From Gammaproteobacteria bacterium (lineage in GTDB: Bacteria > Pseudomonadota > Gammaproteobacteria > Xanthomonadales > Wenzhouxiangellaceae): a DNA stretch of 34,577 nucleotides. Where the stretch lies: assembly GCA_009908385.1 (NCBI GenBank), contig JAAAPE010000078.1:1-34577 (forward strand), read 5' to 3'. Below are positions 4,724-24,330 of this stretch, piece after piece (the first letter of the stretch is position 1; each line of letters starts with the position of its first letter). A program made the translations under genes and the position numbers. Under the pieces are notes generated by a model. The model was not told the DNA's origin, ran no database searches, and worked only from the letters and a program-made list of their open reading frames with translations.

Positions 4724-4791
4724 TTAGGAGTCCTCGGATGTCTTGAATTCGGTTCGTGATTGCCTGGCTTGCGTAGAGCAATCTGGAATAG

Positions 4792-4933
4792 GTTTCAGGT
4801 TTCAGGTTTCAGGTTTCAGGACGGCTTCGATTAGAAGAGCAGTCGGCACCAGCGAGTCGGGAAGCGTCCAGGACACGAGGCACCTGCTTCGTCTCCGGAG
4901 GCTTCCCTGAAACCTGAGCCCAGAAACCTGAAG
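4792..4933. repeat. Heptamer-repeat palindromic intergenic element (copy A)
   Basis: The left arm is exactly four tandem GTTTCAG heptamers (4792-4819). About 86 bp later the right arm carries inverted, partly decayed units CTGAAAC, CTGAGCC, CAGAAAC, CTGAAGC (4907-4934). The arms can pair as a long hairpin. It fills the gap between fadN and fadA inside an operon. The same units occur at 10586-10831/12007-12023 and at 24131-24327, while the central segment here is unrelated to theirs. No ORF is supported inside. Confidence 0.85.
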
Positions 4934-10585: not shown

Positions 10586-10831
10586 GGCTTCAGGGTTCAG
10601 GGTTTAGTGCGGGCGTCCGGGAGCGAGGTGGCGCAGCTTCGCTGCGGAAGCCCTCATGTAGCCGATGGATGGGTGGTCCCGGCCGCAGCGCCGCGACCTT
10701 TCCTTGGAAGGTGCCACGTGCGGAAAGGCCCCGGATCAGGTCCGGGGCTACAAGCCTTGCGGGGACGGCCAAGCCATCGCGGCGCAGCCGCCCGCCCATA
10801 CTCCCAGGTGCCGTCCTGAACCCTGAAACCT
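10586..10831. repeat. Heptamer-repeat element (copy B), left part, interrupted by IS110
   Basis: The left arm GCTTCAGGGTTCAGGGTTTA (from 10588) has TTCAGGG-type units. The right arm starts at 10815 with CCTGAACCCTGAAACCT and is cut at 10831; it resumes at 12007 after the insertion sequence. The centre (about 205 bp) contains the 16-mer CGCGGCGCAGCCGCCC at 10778-10793, identical to 24266-24281 in copy D, and the REP-like hairpin at 10728-10748. No ORF is credible here. Confidence 0.8.
10728..10748. repeat. REP-like GCCCCGGA-loop-TCCGGGGC hairpin
   Basis: A perfect 8-bp stem GCCCCGGA / TCCGGGGC around loop TCAGG. It resembles small REP hairpins seen dispersed in proteobacterial genomes and is nested inside heptamer element B. 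There is no T-run, so a terminator is unlikely. Confidence 0.6.
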
Positions 10832-10833
10832 TG

Positions 10834-10839
10834 TATGTT
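10834..10839 (+). promoter_or_regulatory. -10 half of the circle-junction promoter (left end of IS110)
   Basis: TATGTT lies two bases inside the left end. In the linear insertion it has no good -35. When the ends join through the CT core it lies exactly 17 bp downstream of TTGACC at 11988-11993, giving a full promoter reading into the leader RNA. Confidence 0.65.
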
Positions 10840-10845
10840 CGAGAT

Positions 10846-11010
10846 CGTGGATTTTGAGAGGATAAAGTTGCCGGGGGCGGAGGGACTTAGAAACCCTTTC
10901 TGGCTTTCGCACAGACCGGTTCAGATTTGTCCCGCCCCCACCTCAAGCACCGATGAGGAATCTAGCAGCGATAGACTGCCGATTGATCGCAAGGTTGTGC
11001 TCGAGGGGCT
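10846..11010 (+). ncRNA. Candidate IS110 bridge RNA
   Basis: The non-coding leader folds into two large stem-loops. Loop 1: stem GGGGGC (10873-10878) with GCCCCC (10934-10939), continued by GGGAC (10882-10886) with GTCCC (10929-10933), enclosing 42 nt. Inside are GAAACC (10890-10895), identical to the left target half plus first core base, and GGTTCAG (10918-10924), the exact complement of CTGAACC, the core plus right target half. Loop 2: stem CCTCAAGCAC (10941-10950) with GTGCTCGAGG (10997-11006), one mismatch. Inside are GAATCT (10958-10963), identical to the element's right end plus core (12003-12008), and CAAG (10990-10993), complementary to CTTG at the left end (10830-10833). This is the target-loop/donor-loop order known for IS621. 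Exact 5' and 3' ends are estimated. Confidence 0.8.
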
Positions 11011-11043
11011 CCCCGGCATCCAACTTCCATTGGAGCAATGATT

Positions 11044-11991
11044 ATGGCACACAGCGTTTCTTTGATCAGCCTTGGCGCCGACGTCGACAGCCGCTTCATT
11101 CAGATCAATGGCCACGGTGAGCCCACCGTCCACAAGATCGAGAACTCCCCGCGCGCCATTCGCGCGTGGCTAAAGTCCGTCGCCGCCTCGGCCCGGCTCG
11201 CCGTCGAGGCGACCGGCGCCTATCACCTCGAATTGGTCGATCAGGCGCACAAGGCGGGTCTGACGGTCTACGTCGTCAATCCCCGCGCCATCCGCCAGTA
11301 TCGGGAAAGCGTCGGCCAGCGGGCCAAAAATGACCGCTGCGATGCGAAGCTGATTGCACGTTATATCGACCGCGAGCATGATGAAGTGCGCCCCTACACC
11401 CCGCTGAGCGCCCGACAGCGCAGGGTCTGGCAGCTGCTCAAGCGTCGCGCCACCCTGGTCAAGGCACGCCAGCAGGTCCAGCAGAGCCTGGCCGGCATCA
11501 CCGGGCTGGGTGCACCGCTGCGACAAACGATCGCCAAACTCAATCGGCTGATCACCCTGATCGAAATGCAGATCGAAACCCTGCTCAAGGAGCTGGGCCT
11601 GTGGGAGCTGGTGGAATGCTGCCAGTCCGTCCAGGGCATCGGGCGAGTCACCGCCATGGGTTTGGTCATCGCCTTCGATCGCGGTGACTTCAAAAGTGCC
11701 GATGCCTTCGTGGCCTATCTGGGCATGGATGTCAGGGTCCGGGACTCCGGCAAGTTCGTCGGCCAGCGCAAACTGACCAAAAAGGGCGATGGCGAGTATC
11801 GGCGGCTGATCTACAATGCCGCGGTCACCGCCGGCCGTTACGACTTCAAACCCCTCCTGCAGCGTTTCAAAGACCGCGGCATGAAAAACACCCAGGCCTA
11901 CGTCGCACTGGCGCGAAAGCTGATCCGGATCGCCTTCGCGCTGATGAAAAACCGCGACAGGTTCGACCCAAACCAGCTCAGAATCGCTTGA
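11044..11991 (+). CDS. IS110-family transposase (RuvC-like DEDD plus serine domain)
   Basis: 315 residues. The ATG at 11044 is preferred because GGAG (11032-11035) lies 8 bases upstream; the ATG at 11038 has only 2. Numbered from the 11038 Met, the RuvC-like tetrad is Asp15 (GADVD), Glu57 (AVEATG), Asp99 and Asp102 (KNDRCDAK). A central coiled-coil-like helix (about 140-190) precedes the C-terminal Transposase_20 domain with VQGIGRVTAM (helix-hairpin-helix) and DSGK, whose Ser237 fits the catalytic serine position of IS621 (Ser241). The enzyme would pair target and donor through the leader RNA and recombine at CT. There is no frameshift or truncation. The stop overlaps the -35 hexamer of the circle-junction promoter. 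Confidence 0.95.
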   Translation: MAHSVSLISLGADVDSRFIQINGHGEPTVHKIENSPRAIRAWLKSVAASARLAVEATGAYHLELVDQAHKAGLTVYVVNPRAIRQYRESVGQRAKNDRCDAKLIARYIDREHDEVRPYTPLSARQRRVWQLLKRRATLVKARQQVQQSLAGITGLGAPLRQTIAKLNRLITLIEMQIETLLKELGLWELVECCQSVQGIGRVTAMGLVIAFDRGDFKSADAFVAYLGMDVRVRDSGKFVGQRKLTKKGDGEYRRLIYNAAVTAGRYDFKPLLQRFKDRGMKNTQAYVALARKLIRIAFALMKNRDRFDPNQLRIA

Positions 11992-12008
11992 CCCTCAACA
12001 TAGAATCT
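11988..12008 (+). promoter_or_regulatory. -35 half of the circle-junction promoter and right end of IS110
   Basis: TTGACC (11988-11993) overlaps the transposase stop codon. Fifteen bases reach the end of the CT core, and two more left-end bases complete a 17-bp spacer to TATGTT at 10834-10839 in the circular form. Confidence 0.65.
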
Positions 12009-12023
12009 GAACCCTGAACCCTG
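12007..12023. repeat. Heptamer-repeat element (copy B), right remnant
   Basis: CTGAACCCTGAACCCTG continues the array broken at 10831. It ends 10 bases before the stop codon of the pseudopilin gene. Confidence 0.8.
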
Positions 12024-24125: not shown

Positions 24126-24330
24126 ACACAGGGTTCAGGTTTCAGGGTTCAGGTTTCAGGTTTCAGGGTTCAGGGCAGCGGCCAGGAGTGCTGGGCGGCT
24201 ACGCCGCGATTGGATGCCGCCAACGGAAAGCCTGGGTTCCCCTTGCCAGACTGGCGCCGGCGTGCCGCGGCGCAGCCGCCCCGCAATGGCTCCGGCTGCC
24301 GCCCTGAAACCTGAAACCTGAAACCTGTGT

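Follow-up and report, generated by a model that had tools for sequence, protein, structure and literature searches.

How does the small insertion sequence in this window (the whole 34,577-nucleotide stretch of DNA analysed here) come to lie within a repeat of its host? The first-pass annotation had proposed that the leader of its IS110-type gene encodes a bridge RNA directed to host repeats. Our comparison with other copies and with relatives suggests that this Wenzhouxiangella-like bacterium very probably carries a small IS110 element with a guide RNA whose two loops pair with the landing site and with the element's own ends. We give a probability of about 0.95 to the reading that this is an IS110-group element whose left non-coding end encodes an IS621-type bridge RNA directing insertion into host heptamer sites. 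The case is made at the level of sequence, from the element's ends and site preference, guide/target and donor-guide co-variation, a conserved fold and the catalytic residues of the recombinase.

An IS110-group element in a heptamer repeat

The element and its surroundings comprise the following features:

10832..12008, + strand: IS110-group insertion sequence, 1177 bp including the right core copy; matching termini recur at 7 left and 3 right ends of this genome and in the relative L010
10830..10831, + strand: left copy of the CT core dinucleotide, from junctions compared with L010 and other copies
12007..12008, + strand: right copy of the CT core dinucleotide, read from the sequence
10815..10829, + strand: left flank, the heptamer repeat that is the insertion target (the joined flanks give an in-phase heptamer array)
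12009..12023, + strand: right flank, the heptamer repeat continued (same basis)
11038..11991, + strand: IS110 recombinase, 317 aa (Pfam PF01548 and PF02371; D15, E57, D99, D102; S237-G238)

The left junction reads ...CCTGAAAC|CT|TGTATG and the right junction ...ATAGAAT|CT|GAACCC. With 206 nt of non-coding DNA upstream of the recombinase gene, 17 nt downstream, and a short sub-terminal repeat (ATA at 12000-12002, TAT at 10834-10836), the element has the layout of the IS110 group: a long non-coding left end, a short right end and an ATA/TAT sub-terminal repeat. Both Pfam domains of the protein, the DEDD RuvC-like PF01548 and the C-terminal PF02371, score above cut-off, and its two PDB matches at E 0.01 or better are the recombinases of ISCro4 (E 1.9e-17) and IS621 (E 2.7e-16). 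E57, D99, D102 and S237-G238 align with catalytic positions of both; D15, which lies outside the aligned stretch, is placed by position alone. The protein is an intact DEDD/serine recombinase of the IS110 group, pairing a DEDD RuvC-like domain with a PF02371 domain that has the conserved SG.

The host genome (G000) is a draft of 2.94 Mb in 155 contigs with a computed completeness estimate of 85%, and in it we located six further left ends and two further right ends of the element, seven of these eight running into contig ends, which is what a multicopy element should do in a draft assembly. CCTGAAC-type heptamers lie at all 7 left and all 3 right ends seen in this genome: GAACC|CT is found at six left ends and GAAAC|CT in the window copy, and every right end reads CT|GAACCC. 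Elsewhere in the genome (contig C123, 15449-15501; L134) a remnant comprises only about the final 49 bp of the element; CT|GAACCC still comes after it, and by eye it lies near a tRNA-like sequence.

The pattern RAAMCCTGAACC occurs 93 times in the host genome, its reversed form 0 times, and 41 of the 43 genomes of the host family have it at least once, many of them in single digits. Within the host genome, same-strand neighbours within 30 bp are spaced by a multiple of 7 in all 22 cases, and the 11 instances of neighbouring arrays within 300 bp all show one and the same facing orientation, with facing arms 39-168 bp apart; given this phasing and orientation, the arrays look like arms of a palindromic unit. 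The flanks of the window element, when joined, restore an unbroken heptamer array in phase. Sites that are heptamer arms of a palindromic repeat family would offer the element many places to land. The window itself holds three arm pairs (4791-4914, 10594-10830 and 24132-24325) of a palindromic unit with tandem heptamer arms (CCTGAAC/CCTGAAA). A search of open-licence PMC papers with four 12-mers of the repeat gave, among the 20 of 23 matches listed, no title on a bacterial repeat and so no description of this heptamer target, and no such paper had both Wenzhouxiangella and IS110.

A predicted two-loop RNA in the leader

The leader has the following parts:

10870..11017, + strand: predicted bridge RNA core with target loop, donor loop and outer stem (covariance model R1 and fold analyses)
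10882..10933, + strand: putative target-binding stem-loop (stem 10882-10886/10929-10933; inner hairpin 10899-10902/10912-10915)
10892..10897, + strand: predicted left target guide including the core, AACC-CT (the register that suits 6 of 7 left ends best; a moderate match only)
10917..10924, + strand: predicted right target guide including the core, CGGTTCAG (pairs with CT|GAACC in the right flank, where 5 of 6 bases outside the core match)
10925..10926, + strand: candidate target-loop handshake guide AT (complements the donor AT that directly precedes the core, by comparison with the IS621 model, PMC11208158)
10946..11001, + strand: putative donor-binding stem-loop (stem 10946-10950/10997-11001; inner hairpin 10965-10968/10976-10979)
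10958..10963, + strand: predicted left donor guide GAATCT, the element's right end plus core (variable A/G position concordant in 17 of 17 elements)
10990..10993, + strand: predicted right donor guide CAAG, complement of core plus left end (CTTG; invariant in 20 aligned leaders)
10994..10995, + strand: predicted donor-loop handshake guide GT (its first base is the complement of target base -1)

Pairing of GGGAC (10882-10886) with GTCCC (10929-10933) sets loop 1 at exactly 10887-10928, and pairing of AGCAC (10946-10950) with GTGCT (10997-11001) sets loop 2 at exactly 10951-10996, so the two adjacent stem-loops described in the first-pass annotation are where it had put them. The four motifs that it picked out in these loops are present in the order observed in 0 of 200,000 base shuffles of the leader; taken singly, in 50,000 shuffles, GGTTCAG appears in 1.6%, GAAACC in 3.8%, GAATCT in 3.9% and CAAG in 52%.

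Folded alone, the window leader is no more stable than its shuffles (z -1.21; 23 of 200 fold as well), and we dropped single-sequence folding as evidence for the window, so that the case rests on comparison with relatives. The L010 leader folded alone reaches z -3.28, its 5' and 3' parts pairing into an enclosing stem. The unremarkable fold of the window leader would suit another explanation, in which the leader is an ordinary structured 5' UTR controlling transposase translation and the target and donor matches are coincidental; small RNAs and 5' UTR structure do regulate the ISPpu9 transposase, according to partial text of PMC8450116.

We searched for relatives with a covariance model (R1) built from an alignment of four leaders, the window's included; three MAFFT alignments (A1-A3), in which the target loop was by eye misplaced in some elements, were set aside. 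Of 38 sources searched with the model, 23 yielded nothing at E 0.1 and were taken no further; under stricter filters, R1 had matches in 14 of the order's 398 genomes and in 11 of the 369 from the class, with the window's own genome in both. Plasmid relatives (2432 records) were all below 60% identity and were excluded, viral contigs had no match to any pattern, and Rfam gave 0 matches in the window at the gathering score.

Across 22 model-aligned leaders, an alignment that is itself fitted to the structure, 89.1% of cells are paired, compared with 31-41% when the partner strand is slid; changes on both sides occur in 10 of 18 pairs, and the covariation score is reached by 0 of 500 shuffles. 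The count of further pair types in these leaders is not above shuffles (310 of 500). RNAalifold, run on a plain MAFFT alignment of 20 leaders, recovered de novo the target loop's inner hairpin and the two stems of the donor loop, and paired the target loop's outer stem in a different register. The covariance folding across relatives that the first-pass annotation had suggested as a check supports a two-loop fold of the IS621 type, target loop first, conserved with compensatory changes.

Predicted target guides change with insertion sites

In the aligned leaders the right guide consists of the 8 nt after the inner hairpin, ending in AG, the complement of the core. When the right guides of 18 elements are set against their own right flanks, 92.7 of 108 non-core bases match, compared with a permuted mean of 45.4, and 0 of 200,000 permutations reach the observed value. 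Such guide/target permutations, on either side, ignore shared ancestry, an effect that is only reduced by taking one element per target class (9), where 1 of 362,880 arrangements does as well. The window's right guide, which contains the GGTTCAG (10918-10924) already recognised as the complement of the core plus right half of the site, matches 5 of 6 bases, and no foreign target scores higher. Right guides with better foreign targets are those of G201 (one, its own target matching 3 of 6 only), G308 (two) and G432 (two).

For the left guides, 21 elements match their own targets at 107.5 of 147 bases (permuted mean 65.8; 0 of 100,000 permutations). Here the window's guide is weak to moderate, scoring 4.14 of 7, a value that one of the 20 foreign targets exceeds, and G063 (12 better foreign targets), G689 (20), G432 (5) and G117 (5) do not prefer their own target. 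Taken together, both tests bear out the co-variation of loop-1 segments with insertion sites that the first-pass annotation had proposed to look for: that loop-1 guides and insertion sites change in step from one relative to another is supported, and in the window these guides appear complementary to both strands of the insertion site and overlap at the core as in IS621, the right one strongly and the left one moderately.

Several elements entered these tests in part or not at all. G041, G146 and G657b have left flanks only, and are in the left test (21) and not in the right test (18); the left end (C51) and right end (C85) of G040 were paired by assumption, and the row G657 combines elements of two genomes, G546 and G657. 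Left out were the right ends of G014, of G042 and of three from G041, which have no leader on the same contig, together with G025 (left only, near-identical to G027), L120 (a fragment of a G308 copy), L127 (at a contig end), L129 (ends unrecognised), a fifth G128 RNA copy and G308 flanks cut by contig ends. A prior prediction for G014 and G042 was that right guides match right flanks, near GGTTTCAG, GGGTGAAG and CGAATAAG; the best matches of G014 and G042 to the model had E 0.27 and 4.3, and no leader was found in the G014 draft genome.

Some of these loci gave observations of their own. In G014, at about position 120, a close relative (88% over 33 aa) has two right ends, L040 and L041, at CT|GAAACC and CT|TCACCCC, the second site lying in another degenerate repeat. 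In G042 (contig C311, L042) a relative's right end is followed by CT|TATTCGTTAGGTGCAC, which we take to resemble the end of an integron attC site; the right flanks of L042 and L010 have their first five bases, TATTC, in common. Two of 11 copies of a relative in G117 (L053 and L058) have a partial internal leader duplication that repeats part of the bridge RNA. By eye, the sites are REP-like in 13 of the 18 elements with a right flank. The G117 sites are presumably palindromes of the GTAG type that occurs in Stenotrophomonas, and right flanks of the form CC[CT]AC in other elements are also, as we judge by eye, REP-like.

The register of the left guide needs one correction. GAAACC (10890-10895), which the first-pass annotation read as the left half of the site plus the first core base, is present in loop 1; as a guide, this register (GAAAC plus the first core base) fits the window copy only, and the other six left ends fit AACC-CT. 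Among the 93 host sites 36 read xAACC-CT by hand count (34 GAACC, 2 AAACC), whereas six of seven insertions used that form, which favours AACC-CT with p 0.016, a value from a small sample in which some of the 93 background sites adjoin insertions and the 34/2/57 split was made by hand. The left guide is probably AACC-CT, not GAAAC-C, the earlier register being off by one base.

The first-pass annotation had named two findings that would count against it, the lack of a conserved two-loop fold in relatives and identical loop-1 segments at unrelated sites, and neither was observed: the fold is conserved, as described above, and loop 1 recurs at one type of site. Of the six further left ends in the host genome, four show loop 1 complete and unchanged and a fifth shows it unchanged to base 10922, and every copy that displays it sits at the same heptamer type (the sixth further left end and the two extra right ends stop short of loop 1). 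Guide/site co-variation and the conserved fold thus support the proposal of a bridge RNA directed to host repeats, with a palindromic heptamer repeat as the target.

The closest comparison is with L010, from a Wenzhouxiangella sp. MAG (SKQS01000227.1), which is about 81% identical to the window element in protein and gene and was the sole relative in the scan of genome contigs (L011 is the same locus). Between the two RNAs, 11 of 18 guide bases differ compared with 6 of 130 other bases (Fisher p 2e-8), and in the donor half 2 of 79 bases differ. L010 is inserted at TTAACCTCC|CT|TATTCA; its right guide TGAATAAG complements CT|TATTCA without a mismatch (6 of 6), and its left guide matches 5 of 7 bases of its own target, better than all 20 foreign targets. 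Read from these alignments, the pair is a case of natural retargeting, in which the RNA has been rewritten for a different, matching site. That guides track insertion sites across unrelated targets, and that they differ between the window and L010 where the rest of the RNA is conserved, makes an ordinary 5' UTR with coincidental matches very improbable.

Donor guides, working model and known systems

Loop 2 is consistent with guides complementary to the element's own joined ends, as in IS621. The first-pass annotation had equated GAATCT with the right end plus core and taken CAAG as complementary to core plus left end, and both assignments carry over to the relatives: the variable base of the right end (ATAGAAT or ATAGGAT) is matched by the donor guide in all 17 elements, and CAAG does not vary in the 20 aligned leaders. 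In IS621 the handshake position is the base after the right donor guide (PMC11208158, partial text). At the corresponding place, handshake base 1 complements target base -1 in 20 of 21 elements (5 of 100,000 shuffles), a signal that comes largely from one element group (G where the target has C) and so does not represent 21 independent events; handshake base 2 agrees in 7 of 21 only, no better than shuffles (16,881 of 100,000).

A further feature links the two ends of the element:

11988..12006, + strand: right end with TTGACC (11988-11993), a predicted -35/-10 pair with TATGTT (10834-10839) in the circular form, at 17-bp spacing

In a fixed register the window reaches 9 of 12 for this junction promoter, and the 17 elements tested range from 7 to 10 of 12; the window's score is equalled by 11 of 300 shuffles and those of some relatives far oftener, and the promoter is individually weak in several relatives. 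IS621 RNA starts at a circle-junction promoter (PMC11208160, partial text).

On the bridge-RNA reading, the element would excise as a circle whose joined ends form the promoter TTGACC-17 bp-TATGTT, from which the RNA would be transcribed. Loop 1 would pair with the host site GAACC-CT-GAACC, the left guide with one strand and the right guide with the other, and loop 2 with the element's joined ends AGAAT-CT-TG, after which the DEDD/serine recombinase could exchange strands at the CT core. Many targets look like palindromic-repeat arms, which makes a structural preference possible, and several left guides match poorly, yet it is even less probable that a protein or the DNA structure of palindromic repeats chooses the target with the RNA as a passenger, since the window and L010 recombinases are about 81% identical and their sites nevertheless differ as the guides predict, the donor guide and handshake base co-vary too, and IS621 is experimentally RNA-guided (PMC11208160, partial text).

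We tentatively suggest, as a possibility that we consider rather less than even, that target-loop guides in this clade evolve almost independently of the rest of the element, tracking the host's palindromic repeat family, and that register ambiguity may allow several site variants. If this is true, IS110 loop-1 sequences could serve to discover host repeat families, and ambiguity of the left-guide register in a heptamer array may let one RNA accept both GAACC-CT and GAAAC-CT. The elements also form a natural collection of predicted bridge RNAs, well resolved and differing in target, in which one close pair differs mainly in guides; pairs of this kind allow programming rules (guide length, mismatch tolerance, handshake base) to be tested with no design step. 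The window adds a small recombinase of environmental origin that has a repeat as its target.

Bridge RNA, its mechanism and natural retargeting have already been published (PMC11208160, PMC11208158, PMC11187229), and the window element is a fresh example of a mechanism that is not new. As far as sequence can show, it works like IS621. According to partial text of PMC11208160 and PMC11208158, IS621 shares with the window element a DEDD RuvC domain with a PF02371 serine domain, a long left end with a two-loop RNA in which the target loop precedes the donor loop, left and right guides that overlap at a CT core, ATA/TAT flanking the donor and insertion into intergenic repeats; it also has a full set of handshake bases and a circle-junction promoter, for which the window element has candidates. 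The window recombinase is distant from that of IS621 in sequence (E 2.7e-16), its target is a heptamer repeat whereas that of IS621 is the E. coli REP, its right guide spans 6+2 nt, and the L010 leader has an enclosing 5'/3' stem in its single-sequence fold. REP-targeting insertion sequences (ISPpu9, ISPpu10, ISPa11, ISPsy8 and others) also insert into multicopy intergenic palindromic repeats (PMC1525189, partial text), whereas the window element uses CCTGAAC heptamer arrays. Natural redirection between related elements is described for the seekRNA pairs ISEc11/ISXne4 and ISEc21/ISMch6 (PMC11187229, partial text), which like the window and L010 have altered guide segments at different, matching targets; in contrast to these pairs, the window and L010 differ in both target guides, with the donor half of the RNA almost unchanged (2/79).
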